Positions 4,971-44,684 of a DNA stretch of 64,000 nt are shown one piece after another (positions within the stretch are counted from its first letter, which is position 1; each line of letters starts with the position of its first letter). The stretch spans positions 1 through 64,000 of the forward strand of contig JAGBIE010000012.1 in NCBI GenBank assembly GCA_017935145.1. Reading direction: 5' to 3'. A program made the translations under genes and the position numbers. The DNA comes from Oscillospiraceae bacterium. Lineage in GTDB: Bacteria > Bacillota > Clostridia > Oscillospirales > Oscillospiraceae. A model generated the notes under the pieces. That model saw only the letters and a list, made by a program, of their open reading frames with translations, was not told the origin of the DNA and made no database searches.

Positions 4971-5726
4971 TTATCCCAACAGAAAATCCACCATGAGCAT
5001 AAGGCAAAAACCTGCAAGCAGTGCATAGGTTGCGCCTTGTTCGGAGCCATGGGCGTGAGTTTCGGGAATCATTTCATCACTGATGACATAAATCATTGTG
5101 CCTCCCGCAAAGGCAAGGGCAAAAGGCAAAATTGCAGTGGAAAAACTCACAGCCAAATAACCCAAAAGCGTACCGATGACCTCCACCAAACCCGTTGCCA
5201 AAGCAATCAGGAAGGTGCGGGATTTTTTCATGCCCGTAGCGAGCATGGGCGCAATAATTACCATGCCTTCGGGAATATTCTGCAGTGCGATACCGCTGGC
5301 AATCACCATAGCGCCCTTCACATTTTCTGTACCAAAACTAACGCCAGCGGCGATACCTTCAGGCAGGTTATGAATGGCGATGGCCATAACGAACAGAAGC
5401 ACTTTGTTGAGTTCCGCGCCACTTCTATGCTGTTCTTGTTCTAAGCCTGTTAGGCGGTGCAGGTGAGGCACAAGTCGGTCCATGACATTCATGCACAGCG
5501 CACCTGCAAAGATGCCACCAATGCAGTAGAGAAGGGCAAATTTTCCGCCCAAGTGAAGGGATTCTTGCACAAGACCAAAGACAGCCGCCGCCAGCATCAC
5601 ACCTGCGGCAAGGGCTAGGGTTATATCGCGGAAGCGGTGGGAATCCCGTTTGAGCAGAAAACCCAACAATGCACCTACGACCGTTGCGCCACCCACGCCC
5701 AGTGCTGTGAGAAAAACCAGTTCCAT
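4971..5726 (-). CDS. ZIP family divalent metal transporter
   Basis: The 251-residue integral membrane protein has about eight hydrophobic segments. The binuclear metal site is visible as HNLPEGIAAG in TM4 and QNIPEGM in TM5. A His-containing loop (HLHRLTGLEQEQHRS) lies between TM3 and TM4. The family imports Zn2+ or other divalent ions; the substrate cannot be fixed from sequence. GGAGAAAC precedes ATG 5726. It is last in a ylmH, DUF896, ZIP unit. The length is normal for ZupT-like members. Confidence 0.92.
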   Translation of the reverse strand: MELVFLTALGVGGATVVGALLGFLLKRDSHRFRDITLALAAGVMLAAAVFGLVQESLHLGGKFALLYCIGGIFAGALCMNVMDRLVPHLHRLTGLEQEQHRSGAELNKVLLFVMAIAIHNLPEGIAAGVSFGTENVKGAMVIASGIALQNIPEGMVIIAPMLATGMKKSRTFLIALATGLVEVIGTLLGYLAVSFSTAILPFALAFAGGTMIYVISDEMIPETHAHGSEQGATYALLAGFCLMLMVDFLLG

Positions 5727-9656: not shown

Positions 9657-9689
9657 AAACACCCGACAATTTTTTGTCGGGTGTTTGCT
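9657..9689. terminator. Terminator between the FAD enzyme and the AEC transporter
   Basis: A 12-bp stem (AAACACCCGACA 9657-9668 with 9675-9686) lies between the convergent genes and can act for both. Confidence 0.85.
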
Positions 9690-10595
9690 TTATACCAACA
9701 TAAGCCACAAGGGCAAAGTGAGGATGGAAAGCAAGTGGGACAAGAATGCCAATTTTGCGCCCAACATGGGAGACTGACCGCCATTTTTGGCGAAGATGAT
9801 GGTATTGAGTCCCGTGGGCATGGCCATGTAAATGAGTGCCGAGGGAAGTATTTGAGGAACATTCAAGAGTTTGCACACCCCAAACACCACAGCAGGAATC
9901 ACCACAAGACGCAGTGCCACCATAAGATAGGCTTTTTTATCCATGAGCAGAGACTTGGGTGCCATATCCGCAAGGGTCAAACCCGTCATAATCATGCTCA
10001 GTGGCCCTACACAGGCAGATGCCGAAGCGATGGGCTGAGAGACGACCTTAGGCATGGAAATTTGCAGAAGACCCAATCCAGCGCCTATAAGGATGGAAAT
10101 GGTGGTGGGGTTTAGAAGACTCTTAATTCCCTTCCCCTGCCCCGAGAGAATGACATAGCCATAGGTATAGGTGTAAATGGCAAAGGGAATGGTAAACAGC
10201 ACATAGTCCGTTAGTCCCTGACTGCCAAAGATGGCCAAAATCAGAGGATAGCCTAAATATGCGCCATTGGGGATGACGAAGGAATACTCATACACTCTTC
10301 TTTCAAAGGCGTCCTTACTCAGTGCTTTGGCAGGAAATTTGCAGGTAAAATGCAGTACTGCCAAGAGGGCTGTGGAGAAAATCAGTGAAGAACCGTTATT
10401 TAGAAAATATTCCACCGTGAAGTTCTCACTGAAACTGCTGATGACCGTGCAAGGCAAAAACAGATTCACAATCAGAAAGGACAAAATGCCCGTTTGGGGA
10501 ATCAAGTCCTTCTTCCATCTGCCGAGAAGCCAGCCGATAAACAGGAAAATATAAAACTCAGAAAGTCGCTCTAAAACCACAAGCAAGGAAAGCAT
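9690..10595 (-). CDS. AEC family transporter (auxin efflux carrier fold)
   Basis: The 301-residue membrane protein has about ten hydrophobic segments, with AEC features such as NLFLPCTVISSF in the N-half and TGLTLADM and RLVVIPAVVF in the C-half. Bacterial relatives move organic acids such as malate; the substrate here is unknown. TTGGAGG precedes ATG 10595, and the gene starts 14 bp after the GTPase gene, so it is the third gene of that unit. A link to metal GTPases is not obvious. Confidence 0.88.
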   Translation of the reverse strand: MLSLLVVLERLSEFYIFLFIGWLLGRWKKDLIPQTGILSFLIVNLFLPCTVISSFSENFTVEYFLNNGSSLIFSTALLAVLHFTCKFPAKALSKDAFERRVYEYSFVIPNGAYLGYPLILAIFGSQGLTDYVLFTIPFAIYTYTYGYVILSGQGKGIKSLLNPTTISILIGAGLGLLQISMPKVVSQPIASASACVGPLSMIMTGLTLADMAPKSLLMDKKAYLMVALRLVVIPAVVFGVCKLLNVPQILPSALIYMAMPTGLNTIIFAKNGGQSPMLGAKLAFLSHLLSILTLPLWLMLV

Positions 10596-10609: not shown

Positions 10610-11548
10610 TCAGAACTGGGCGACATCGGGGTCCGCAGGCGTAGCAGGAGTCACATTCAGCGCCGTAAGGATAGGGCCAATGCCCTTGTAGAGTTCATGA
10701 TACTGCACGGAGATTTTGGCCTCCACCATGACCCAACTGCGAGAGGCAAGTTTCTCGCCCCCTGCCCACTTGCAGGGTAGTGCCATAAAGGTAATGTCAT
10801 CAGCACAGCAGGTCATGACAAAACGACCAGGGGCAAACATGCCCTCCTTGGTCTTTTTGAGTTTTGCCACCTGACCCTTAAAGATGACAGTTTTGCCATC
10901 ATACTTATCGGGTTCTTCGGTAATATCGCGATAGAACAGGGCATAGTCCTCATCCTTGACCGTGATAACAGGGGCATTAATATCAAAGGGCAGAGGGTCT
11001 TCCACATCATCAAACTTAGTAGTGCCATCCACATAGTCATAGATGATATCCACACGGCGATTGAGAGCGCGAGCCATTTTGTGCAGGGGCATAAAGTCGC
11101 GTTCAGGGGTCATGCGGTTAAAGACCACCATCTCACAGCCCTGCATTTTATCCACCACCAAGGAACGCATATTGGCATTATAGGTTTCAATGGTGGTGCT
11201 ATCGGCAAACATGACCTCTTGGGCAATTTCCCAATCACGGGGCATTTTGGCGTAGAAATCCGCTACAGGGCGCATGCCATTGAGTTCTGCCACCACTCGC
11301 TTGGCGTGGTGCTTTTTTTGCAGAGCCTCCAATGCTTCAGGTGTAAGGGCATCTAAATCGTCAATGATTTCAATATAAATGCACTTGTGGGGATAGGTGG
11401 AGAGGTCATACTCCTCCTCCCCTTCTTCCATGACCAAAAGCAAGGTGCGAGTGCCATCGTTAAAGCGCTCATCCTCCAAGGTCTCGTGGATAAATTTGGT
11501 CTTGCCAGACTCTAAAAAGCCCGTAAAGGCATAGACAGGAATGGCCAT
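10610..11548 (-). CDS. G3E-type GTPase fused to a C-terminal DUF1980/TIGR03943-like domain
   Basis: The 312-residue protein has an N-terminal CobW/HypB-like P-loop (GFLESGKTKF, about residues 10-19) but no CXCC metal motif and no clear NKxD (VFNRMTPE stands there). From about residue 220 a separate beta-rich domain follows, with TVIFKGQVAKLKK and RFVMTCCADDITF then LPCKW. This resembles the C-terminal domain of YcgQ/TIGR03943 proteins, which pair with permeases and CobW GTPases in metal homeostasis. The fusion call is from pattern memory. It starts 3 bp after the CobW stop. Confidence 0.75.
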   Translation of the reverse strand: MAIPVYAFTGFLESGKTKFIHETLEDERFNDGTRTLLLVMEEGEEEYDLSTYPHKCIYIEIIDDLDALTPEALEALQKKHHAKRVVAELNGMRPVADFYAKMPRDWEIAQEVMFADSTTIETYNANMRSLVVDKMQGCEMVVFNRMTPERDFMPLHKMARALNRRVDIIYDYVDGTTKFDDVEDPLPFDINAPVITVKDEDYALFYRDITEEPDKYDGKTVIFKGQVAKLKKTKEGMFAPGRFVMTCCADDITFMALPCKWAGGEKLASRSWVMVEAKISVQYHELYKGIGPILTALNVTPATPADPDVAQF

Positions 11549-11551
11549 AGA

Positions 11552-12676
11552 TTACACTCCAAACAGTTGGGAAATTTTATCCTCATCCATATGAGAGCCA
11601 ATGACGCAAATGCGTCCCGTCACGGCAGAGCCACCACGGCGCAGGTCGGTTTCACCAGGAACATAGTCAAAGTGGAGCCATGCGCCATCAGATGCGGGCA
11701 CAATACCCTTGGCGCGAAGCACCATGCCGCACTCGCCGTGTTCCAGTTCGTGGAGAATGTGACGCAGTTCCTCTTCTGTGAACTTCTTGGGCGTTTCTTT
11801 GCCCCAAGAGGTGAACACCTCATCAGCATGATGGTGGTGATGTTCGTGGTCATGACCGCAACAGCAGTGACCGTCTTCATGATGATGGTGCTCATGCTCA
11901 TGATGACCACAGCAGTGATGTTCATGCTCTTCATGGTCATGGTGGCAATGTTCGTGGTCATGGTCGTGATGGCAGTGCTCATGGTCATGCTCGTGGTGGT
12001 GATGACCGCAGCAGCAGTGACCGTCTTCATGATGGTGATGGTGGTGCTCCTCATGGAGGGATTCCATTTCATCATGGAGGGAATGCTCCCCTGCCATGGC
12101 GGAGAGAATTTGCTCACCTGTCAGTTCATCCCAAGGAGTAGTGATGACGGTAGCATGTTCATTGAGAGTGCGCAGACGCTCCACGCAATCGTGGAGTTTT
12201 TCCTCGCTCATATTCTGAGTACGGCTGAGGATGATGGTTTTGGCGGTTTGGATTTGGTCGTTATAGAACTCGCCAAAGTTCTTCATATACATTTTGCACT
12301 TGTTGGCATCGGCTACGGTAACCATGGCGGACAGTTCCACCTGCTCATCCACTGCATTTTTCACAGCCTGCACCACATCGGAGAGTTTGCCAACACCCGA
12401 GGGCTCAATGAGAATGCGATCGGGGGCATATTCTGTCAATACCTGTTGCAGAGCCTTGCCAAAATCGCCCACCAAAGAACAGCAGATACAACCGGAGTTC
12501 ATTTCGCTGATTTGGATGCCTGCTTCCTGCAAGAAGCCGCCATCGATACCGATTTTACCAAATTCATTTTCAATGAGCACCAATTTTTCGCCCTTGTAGG
12601 CCTCGGCAATGAGTTTTTTGATGAGCGTAGTCTTTCCTGCGCCCAAAAAACCAGAAAAGATATCAATTTTCGTCAT
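11552..12676 (-). CDS. CobW/COG0523 GTPase with a long His/Cys-rich metal-binding region
   Basis: The 374-residue putative metallochaperone has Walker A FSGFLGAGKTTL (about 7-18), GCICCSL with the CXCC metal motif (63-66), and IEPSGVGKLSD as the Walker B/switch region. The NKxD guanine motif is replaced by SRTQ. Residues about 208-289 are almost all His, Cys, Asp and Glu, including two copies of EDGHCCCGH. The C-terminal CobW domain follows (KFTEEELRHILHELEHGECG). Such regions bind Zn, Ni or Co; which metal is unknown. AAGGTG precedes ATG 12676. Confidence 0.92.
   Translation of the reverse strand: MTKIDIFSGFLGAGKTTLIKKLIAEAYKGEKLVLIENEFGKIGIDGGFLQEAGIQISEMNSGCICCSLVGDFGKALQQVLTEYAPDRILIEPSGVGKLSDVVQAVKNAVDEQVELSAMVTVADANKCKMYMKNFGEFYNDQIQTAKTIILSRTQNMSEEKLHDCVERLRTLNEHATVITTPWDELTGEQILSAMAGEHSLHDEMESLHEEHHHHHHEDGHCCCGHHHHEHDHEHCHHDHDHEHCHHDHEEHEHHCCGHHEHEHHHHEDGHCCCGHDHEHHHHHADEVFTSWGKETPKKFTEEELRHILHELEHGECGMVLRAKGIVPASDGAWLHFDYVPGETDLRRGGSAVTGRICVIGSHMDEDKISQLFGV
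11820..12053. repeat. Degenerate in-gene repeats encoding the His/Cys-rich segment
   Basis: CAT/GTG-rich repeats within the CobW gene. A near-identical block (GCAGTGACCGTCTTCATGAT) occurs twice, near 11869 and 12013, and both encode EDGHCCCGH. This is repeat expansion inside a coding sequence, not a CRISPR array. Confidence 0.8.
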
Positions 12677-12709: not shown

Positions 12710-12738
12710 AGTATAGCACCAACCATCTGCAACATCAA
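12710..12738 (-). promoter_or_regulatory. Promoter for the CobW-GTPase-AEC operon
   Basis: On the minus strand TTGATG (12733-12738), 17 bp ending TGC, and TATACT (12710-12715). No Zur or Fur-like operator was recognised. Confidence 0.65.
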
Positions 12739-13176: not shown

Positions 13177-13205
13177 TTGACGGGCATTGTCCAAAGTGGT
13201 AATTT
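13177..13205 (+). promoter_or_regulatory. Promoter for the thrE-type operon
   Basis: TTGACG (13177-13182), 17 bp and TAATTT (13200-13205). The first possible start codon in the frame lies inside this -35, which argues for the later start at 13246. Confidence 0.5.
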
Positions 13206-13245
13206 AGTTATGAAGGACTTCCTTTTACAAAGTGAGGTAGCTGTC

Positions 13246-13998
13246 ATGAAAGATATTTTGACCTGCGTCATGGACATTGGTGAAAACATGCTCATCAATG
13301 GCGCAGAAGTGCATCGGGTGGAGGAAAGCATTCAACGGATGTGCTATGCCCTTGGCGCAAAACGGGTGGATATTTTTATCATCACCACCTCTATGGTGGC
13401 AACCATTTATGGTGAAGGTGGCGCATTTTATTCCCAGACCCGCCGTGTGACCACTGGGGATGTAAATTATGAGGTCATTCATCGACTGAATAAACTCTCA
13501 AGAAAGATTTGCTCTGTGCCCATGACCACAGCGGAGATTCAAGCAGAATTGCAGGATGTTCTCTGTTGTAAAAAATATCCCTCTTGGCTGGAATATGCGG
13601 CTTATTCCGTTATCGCGGCAGCATTCACCGTGTTTTTTGGCGGTGGCTGGGCTGAAGCAGTCGTTTCCCTGCTCATTGGTTTTTTGGTGCGCTGCACCAT
13701 CCATTTTGCGGAAAAGGCTATCCACAATAAGATTTTCTCCAGATTCTTCTCTTCCCTTGTGGCAACCGCCCTTGCGTATGTTGCCCATCGCCTGCACTTA
13801 TTCGACAGCATTGATACTGTGCTCATTGGTAACATTATGACTCTCATTCCTGGCACAGGTCTCACCAATGCGTTCCGTGACTTGTTTACGGGTGACAGCA
13901 TTTCGGGTCTGCTGAGAACTGTGGAGGCAGCACTAACGGCATTGGCCATCGCCGCAGGCTACTTCCTCGTGGCATTGTTGGGAGGTGCTGTGCTATGA
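13246..13998 (+). CDS. Threonine/serine exporter, N-terminal half (ThrE/DUF1212)
   Basis: The 250-residue protein begins with the soluble DUF1212 domain (GENMLINGAEVHRVEESIQRM, then VDIFIITTSMVATI) and continues into five hydrophobic segments after residue about 115 with NIMTLIPGTGLTNAFRDLFTGD. Split ThrE pairs like this form a two-component exporter; the substrate assignment is family knowledge. ATG 13246 is chosen because GAGGT lies 7 bp upstream. The stop overlaps the partner start as ATGA. Confidence 0.9.
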   Translation: MKDILTCVMDIGENMLINGAEVHRVEESIQRMCYALGAKRVDIFIITTSMVATIYGEGGAFYSQTRRVTTGDVNYEVIHRLNKLSRKICSVPMTTAEIQAELQDVLCCKKYPSWLEYAAYSVIAAAFTVFFGGGWAEAVVSLLIGFLVRCTIHFAEKAIHNKIFSRFFSSLVATALAYVAHRLHLFDSIDTVLIGNIMTLIPGTGLTNAFRDLFTGDSISGLLRTVEAALTALAIAAGYFLVALLGGAVL

Positions 13999-14468
13999 AA
14001 GAGGCATTGTTGCAGATTTTCATGGGCGCCATCGGCAGTATGGGCTTTGCTATTCTGTTTAATATCCGTGGCAAGCGCTTTATAACCGCCACCTTGGGTG
14101 CAGTGCTGTCTTGGGGATCGTACTTACTGTTCTCGCGGTTCATTGGTGACAATACCGTGTGCTACTTTTTGGCATCGGTACTGACTTCTTTCTATGCGGA
14201 AATAATGGCAAGAGTGCTGAAGACCCCTACCACTACCTTTATTATCACATCTCTTATCCCCTTGGTGCCTGGTAGCAGTTTGTACTACACCATGGCCTAT
14301 GCCTTTGAAAGTGCCCAGGGGAAATTTGTTGCTCGTGCAGCGGAAACCCTAAAACTTTCCTCGGCGCTGGCATTGGGTGTGATTGTTGCCACTACCTTTA
14401 CCAAGGTACTCATGACCCATTTGGCAAAAAAAGCCCAACAAAAGAAAGAAAAAGCAGTCATCTCATAA
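13995..14468 (+). CDS. Threonine/serine exporter, C-terminal half (ThrE/DUF3815)
   Basis: The 157-residue membrane protein has four to five hydrophobic segments and the family sequence FYAEIMARVLKTPTT, then SLIPLVPGSSLYYTM. It completes the exporter with the preceding gene, with which it overlaps by 4 bp. The stop codon sits in the loop of the terminator. Confidence 0.9.
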   Translation: MKEALLQIFMGAIGSMGFAILFNIRGKRFITATLGAVLSWGSYLLFSRFIGDNTVCYFLASVLTSFYAEIMARVLKTPTTTFIITSLIPLVPGSSLYYTMAYAFESAQGKFVARAAETLKLSSALALGVIVATTFTKVLMTHLAKKAQQKKEKAVIS

Positions 14469-44504: not shown

Positions 44505-44545
44505 TCTGGAAAATGACACATGACACACCTATTGCAGTGTGTCTA

Positions 44546-44615
44546 CTCTGTCCTTTTGCCTGAGAGATTCGGCTTTCACCTTACACCTTCGGCACTCTTG
44601 CGAGATTCTCCAGAG
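44546..44615 (-). promoter_or_regulatory. Glycine riboswitch (single aptamer)
   Basis: On the minus strand the conserved core reads GCCGAAGG, then GAAAGCCGAATCTCTCAGGC followed by AAAAGGACAGAG. P1 is CTCTGG at the 5' end with CAGAG at the 3' end. Only one full aptamer core is present; an upstream hairpin-rich segment (44616-44645) lacks the core and may be a reduced partner helix. It lies about 40-70 nt before the terminator and controls the amino-acid symporter. Confidence 0.92.
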
Positions 44616-44684
44616 ATTCCTCCGTTCCCGGTCTCTTGCGATTCCTGAAACTTCTTCGGAACAATATTTTGTTATGACATAGGC

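Follow-up and report, generated by a model that had tools for sequence, protein, structure and literature searches.

Haas et al. (PMC2770081) name two marks of the G3E GTPase family: an intact NKXD motif and a glutamate in Walker B. Among the closest described systems to the gene pair reported here are YciC/ZagA and ZigA, zinc metallochaperones of the COG0523 group, and the YcgQ/ScfB proteins (TIGR03943, DUF1980). According to one report, scfAB mutants of group A Streptococcus are less fit in mice and the function of the scfAB pair is not known (PMC5584981); that text, together with family resemblance, suggests that ScfB corresponds to YcgQ. In Bacillus anthracis, Zur binds upstream of the ArsP_1 permease gene BAS1632, which is numbered next to yciC (BAS1633) (PMC6336718). 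The roles of YcgQ/ScfB and of the ArsP_1-type partner are not known, hence the value of a soluble version: with a permease-free pair, DUF1980_C and the CCxxD motif in it become directly testable in vitro. The literature searched contained no description of the pair analyzed here or of the GTPase-permease fusions to which we compare it, and the pair is apparently undescribed so far.

The pair lies in a stretch of 64,000 nucleotides from an Oscillospiraceae bacterium (the window, by which we mean the whole stretch that was analyzed) and consists of two genes on the same strand separated by 3 bp, which occupy exactly the range 10610-12676 delimited by the first-pass annotation.

11552-12676, minus strand: P1, a CXCC-containing, His-rich G3E GTPase of COG0523 type, 374 amino acids (PF02492, 138.1 bits, plus CobW_C, 32.8 bits)
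10610-11548, minus strand: P2, a G3E GTPase without CXCC fused to DUF1980_C, 312 amino acids (domain matches, alignment and model)

The Pfam search found a cobW domain (PF02492) and a CobW_C domain (PF07683) in P1, which is 57-71% identical to 33 relatives. Like YciC/ZagA and ZigA, P1 combines a Walker A motif, a Walker-B glutamate (E91, invariant in the alignment of 34), CXCC, a His-rich linker and CobW_C. Unlike them, it has SRTQ in place of NKxD, never occurs without P2 among the family genomes sampled and shows no Zur box that we could find. Its score against the ZigA model (NF038288) was 73.6 bits, far below the cut-off of 600, and against the cobalamin CobW model (TIGR02475) it scored 89.5 versus a cut-off of 332.1. 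By domain content and CXCC, P1 thus reads as a variant COG0523/G3E member without an intact NKxD.

12626-12652, minus strand: P1 Walker A, GFLGAGKTT, residues 9-17, invariant in 34/34
12479-12490, minus strand: P1 metal motif CICC, residues 63-66, invariant in 34/34
12215-12226, minus strand: P1 SRTQ at the NKxD position, residues 151-154
11828-12061, minus strand: P1 His/Cys/Glu/Asp-rich segment, residues 206-283, recognized by composition
11561-11812, minus strand: P1 CobW_C domain, residues 289-372 (PF07683)

The first-pass annotation had singled out a His/Cys/Asp/Glu segment with two copies of EDGHCCCGH and the SRTQ substitution in the CobW protein. The segment is there, with 78 residues that comprise 41 H, 13 E, 10 C and 7 D and with the two copies at residues 217 and 267; it falls below a pLDDT of 50 in the model, and a His-rich stretch of variable sequence is present in all 111 P1 proteins counted. 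SRTQ is also present, but it marks the subfamily and is not peculiar to this protein: the NKxD site was located in 109 P1 proteins (two P1 rows lacking NFGEF being left out) and is occupied by S-[R/H]-T in 103 of them, and NK.D was found in 0 of 111. Here and below, the sets of 111 P1 and 118 P2 proteins cover P1 proteins longer than 300 amino acids and P2 proteins longer than 280 amino acids, with matches above 100 bits.

The GTPase domain of P2 is weak but appears real. PF02492 matched it with 20.2 bits against a cut-off of 20.7, or 22.5 bits when neighboring matches in the frame are counted.

11498-11521, minus strand: P2 Walker A, GFLESGKT, residues 10-17; G10, G15, K16 and T17 invariant in 34/34
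11273-11287, minus strand: P2 Walker-B-like ELNGM, residues 88-92; E.N[GA][MT] in 118/118 P2 proteins
11114-11119, minus strand: P2 Asn-Arg at the NKxD position, residues 144-145; N144 invariant and R145 nearly so among 34
10643-10978, minus strand: P2 DUF1980_C domain, residues 191-302 (PF21537, 73.3 bits)
10796-10810, minus strand: P2 CCxxD (C247, C248, D251), a candidate metal site; CC..D in 118/118 P2 proteins

The Walker A pattern recurred in 117/118 P2 proteins and CXCC in none of the 118, and P2 of the window lacks CXCC as well, which bears out the earlier description of a P-loop GTPase devoid of CXCC. The Walker-B glutamate is kept in both P1 and P2 and NKXD in neither, and nucleotide use by the two proteins is uncertain for this reason. 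The second domain had been likened to TIGR03943/DUF1980, and rightly so: PF21537 (DUF1980_C) is matched well above its cut-off of 25.9 bits, while the full TIGR03943 model gave 82.5 bits, just under its cut-off of 88.8. P2 shares with YcgQ/ScfB the DUF1980_C domain and its R..M.CC..D signature, in which the CCxxD pair of YcgQ proteins appears as CC or HC. It differs from them in being fused to a GTPase, in falling below the TIGR03943 cut-off and in lacking an adjacent permease and the N-terminal membrane domain of DUF1980 (PF09323), for which no match was listed in P2 at E values up to 1.

The model of P2 built from 34 sequences had a pLDDT of 91.2 and a pTM of 0.64. In this model the GTPase part matches HypB, YjiA and UreG at Z 12.5-13.5, with an rmsd of 3.1-3.6 over 161-170 aligned residues, the VIA-align rows listed for P2 spanning mostly residues 1-183. 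P2 shares the GTPase fold with these three proteins but is set apart from them by the absence of CXCC and of an intact NKxD and by its additional C-terminal domain. That DUF1980_C domain appears OB-like, since a Foldseek search with the whole model returned OB-fold rows for the C-terminal part (AsnRS and SSB, E about 4e-4 to 1e-3) and a YcgQ protein has a weak OB Pfam match.

P1, at a threshold of at least 300 bits, was present in 69 of 150 genomes of the family to which the window belongs, and P2 was present in 69 of these 69, so that a probable zinc-trafficking pair occurs in about half of the sampled family genomes. The P2 search matched 75 family genomes, six beyond the 69 with P1: three carry P1 fragments at contig ends (G114, G094, G139), one has P2 at a contig start (G051), one encodes the membrane version considered below (G093) and one encodes YcgQ with a permease (G108). 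DUF1980_C was matched in 77 other genomes. Neighborhoods were fetched for 40 of these; P1 stood directly upstream of P2 in 36 (the exceptions being L050, L055, L056 and L061), and no recurrent gene cluster was seen around the pair. L070 dropped out of the neighborhood listing through an overlap rule, although its P1 and P2 are both visible in the fetched sequence. Among the best 80 of 553 relatives in named genomes, P1 was upstream on the same strand in all 80 and adjacent by rule in 76; the remaining four comprise an over-called start (L121), a 411-amino-acid open reading frame between P1 and P2 in Ruminococcus albus 8 (L152:3634-4869) and two longer gaps (L163, L164). Across the phylum, full-length P2 was found in 10 of 398 genomes, each time with an adjacent P1-like GTPase. 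The pairing is obligate within the family sample, and with P1 and P2 both conserved throughout the family, this is a real, widespread gene pair that is not a product of chance. Four divergent P2-like fusions had no P1 detected beside them (L212:6662-7597, L220:5480-6436, L221:5998-6930 and L050:9277-10212) and possibly form a second subfamily.

A search of the phylum with P2 also retrieved its type of GTPase in proteins of 516-549 amino acids, in which Pfam places a cobW domain ahead of an ArsP_1 permease. There were four full-length fusions of this kind among the 398 phylum genomes (L195-L198; PF02492 plus PF03773) and a fifth in the family of the window (L219, genome G093), where the same architecture was read from separate GTPase and ArsP_1 matches. 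Four of them adjoin ZnuABC and Fur-like genes:

L195:7480-9054, GTPase-ArsP_1 fusion protein
L196:7576-9150, GTPase-ArsP_1 fusion protein
L198:7006-8556, GTPase-ArsP_1 fusion protein
L219:239-1876, GTPase-ArsP_1 fusion protein

The permease part has 8-9 predicted membrane segments; in the fused GTPases CXCC is missing and the Walker-B-like motif reads E.NG[M/V] or E.NSL. A CobW gene is the next gene upstream in 5/5 fusion loci, with an LSRT- or FSRT-type motif in four and LSRC in L219; CXCC is present in four of the five CobWs, the contig of L198 ending before its copy reaches the motif. A DUF1980 protein is encoded by the next gene downstream in L195-L198, while the L219 contig ends downstream of the fusion and a DUF1980 protein starts where a second contig ends (L056). 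These sets resemble the P2 pair in the CXCC-less GTPase, the E.N[G/S] motif, the upstream CobW and the presence of DUF1980_C, but their GTPase is joined to the permease and their DUF1980_C belongs to a membrane protein of its own.

In a tree of 49 GTPase domains, from which the CobWs of L195 and L198 were left out (the latter cut by its contig end), P2 and the permease-fused GTPases came together against the CXCC CobWs (98/88); P1 formed one group (99/95) and the permease-fused GTPases did not. In the DUF1980_C tree, 21 P2 domains stood apart from 16 YcgQ domains (100/100) and were not nested among them. YcgQ of the three-gene loci (Y3) as the direct parent of the P2 C-terminal domain was unsupported by this tree, with a p-AU of 0.034 against P2 plus Y3. 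The gene order CobW, GTPase-permease, membrane-DUF1980_C means that a single deletion could yield CobW, GTPase-DUF1980_C; because P2 is not nested in YcgQ, neither loss versus gain of the permease nor an origin in a single step is settled by the tree. P2 has its GTPase type and DUF1980_C in common with this set, and thus unites two parts of a membrane set encoded in zinc operons while lacking the membrane parts.

ZnuA, ZnuB, ZnuC and Fur-like genes adjoin the fusion set in L195, L196, L198 and L219 (identified by Pfam in part and by phmmer for the rest), and in L055 and L200, where ArsP_1 and YcgQ form a plain pair, ZnuABC and a Fur-like gene are likewise nearby, the Fur match in L200 being weak (36 bits). 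A ZnuA gene adjoins in L199 and L207. The L197 set follows a CbiM gene instead (L197:7277-11121), and the metal may differ between lineages. Near the P1-P2 loci themselves we found no zinc genes except one Fur-like gene in L093; ABC ATPase matches at L033, L045 and L101 are long ABC proteins that are probably unrelated. In the genome of the window, ZnuABC is encoded on a different contig. The one Fur-family gene of this incomplete genome adjoins a rubrerythrin-like open reading frame, for which reason it may be PerR-like (all of these genes were named by reading the sequences). From the ZnuABC/Fur context of the membrane relatives and the Zur binding reported for B. anthracis (PMC6336718), zinc is most likely the metal handled by the pair, and a metal role of P1-P2 is well supported by context.

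Upstream of P1 we noted one promoter-like element:

12710-12738, minus strand: promoter-like TTGATG-17-TATACT with TG before the -10

The extended -10 (TGNTATAMT) occurred in 50 of 108 upstream regions, compared with 4 of 108 on the other strand. A Zur site, raised in the first-pass annotation, was not encountered near P1 at up to 3 mismatches to the Bacillus-type box, from which that of the host lineage may differ. Upstream regions shared no convincing palindrome (a few AT-rich words slightly exceeded shuffles, none operator-like), no riboswitch preceded P1, and none of the cobalamin or Ni/Co classes reached threshold anywhere in the window. Constitutive expression of the pair is a real possibility given the extended -10 promoter and the lack of a palindrome or Zur box.

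We consider it probable that P1 and P2 are closely coupled G3E GTPases of the cytoplasm and that the metal they handle is a transition metal, zinc most likely; the pair would be a soluble version of the membrane zinc-trafficking set that dispenses with permease and membrane anchor. P1 would collect the metal through CXCC and a flexible His-rich reservoir; P2, lacking CXCC, would offer instead an OB-like DUF1980_C domain whose invariant CCxxD may accept the metal or be the place of hand-over. Pairing is frequent among SIMIBI GTPases, and P2 may on this account be the partner of P1; a read-through model of the tandem, aligned from 36 in-frame loci with one containing two stops left out, had a pTM of 0.51 and gave no support for contact. 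The analysis establishes the domain layout, the obligate pairing among the sampled family genomes, the grouping of the P2 GTPase with the permease-fused ones and the zinc-operon setting of the relatives. We infer the metal, the direction of transfer, the P1-P2 contact, the use of GTP and the client, and insertion of metal into that client would be a further inferred step. A bolder version, which we put forward tentatively and regard as doubtful, would make the pair a heteromeric GTPase relay and the cytoplasmic counterpart of a zinc importer: one deletion would have removed the permease and the membrane anchor between GTPase and DUF1980_C, the joined protein would be a dedicated acceptor of metal from a GTPase with altered base recognition, and the two would serve as a general zinc-distribution hub in the family and its relatives.

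The pair could serve cobalt or nickel, for example by inserting the metal into a corrinoid or nickel enzyme. His-rich inserts are known in nickel chaperones, and CbiM, a cobalt/nickel component, precedes the permease-fused set of L197; ZnuABC and Fur-like genes at 4/5 permease-fusion loci, the score of P1 far under the true-CobW cut-off and the absence from the window of the two riboswitch classes named above argue the other way, and we think this reading unlikely. Much the same holds for P1 as mainly a metal store or buffer through its His-rich segment, with P2 regulating release and no client metallated: the large His/Cys/Asp/Glu segment of variable sequence in every relative and the plain, possibly constitutive promoter fit such a role, but the strict conservation of GTPase motifs and CXCC suggests an energy-driven step, and we would not expect storage to be the main function.

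DUF1980_C is otherwise found in TIGR03943 permease subunits, which raises the question of whether P2 still acts as one, with a YcgR-like permease encoded elsewhere. The absence of a permease remarked on in the first-pass annotation extends to the available genome, 79% complete, where a search for YcgR-like permeases found no ArsP_1 protein. ArsP_1 proteins are present in 14 of 72 P2 genomes and were not seen in 58, and they occur in 16 of 78 family genomes with DUF1980_C versus 16 of 72 without. Because ArsP_1 is no commoner with DUF1980_C than without it, the soluble P1-P2 form seems to work alone; as P2 also shows no DUF1980 membrane domain, a permease subunit is an improbable role for it. 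A transporter of a different type does lie next to the pair:

9690-10595, minus strand: AEC/Mem_trans transporter gene (PF03547, 105.5 bits), starting 14 bp downstream of P2; an incidental neighbor
9657-9686, minus strand: terminator-like stem after the AEC gene, seen in the sequence

With so short a gap and no terminator-like stem ahead of the one that follows the AEC gene, P1, P2 and this transporter might be taken for one transport unit, but none of 120 other loci, same-genus ones included, has an AEC homolog near P2, which makes such a unit highly improbable and led us to reject the AEC transporter as a partner. Of the reorganized metal-insertion system proposed earlier, the reorganization is supported, in that the same GTPase type is fused to ArsP_1 beside a full DUF1980 protein in ZnuABC/Fur operons; the AEC transporter does not belong to it.

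Three further features of the window were recorded. A ZupT-like ZIP metal transporter is encoded at 4971-5726 (minus strand; PF02535, 89.8 bits), some 5 kb away from P1-P2, the intervening genes being unrelated. A glycine riboswitch (RF00504, 55.8 bits) lies at 44538-44623 (minus strand). At 13177-14468 (plus strand), two adjacent membrane-protein open reading frames follow two tRNA-Ser genes and presumably resemble a split ThrE-type exporter.
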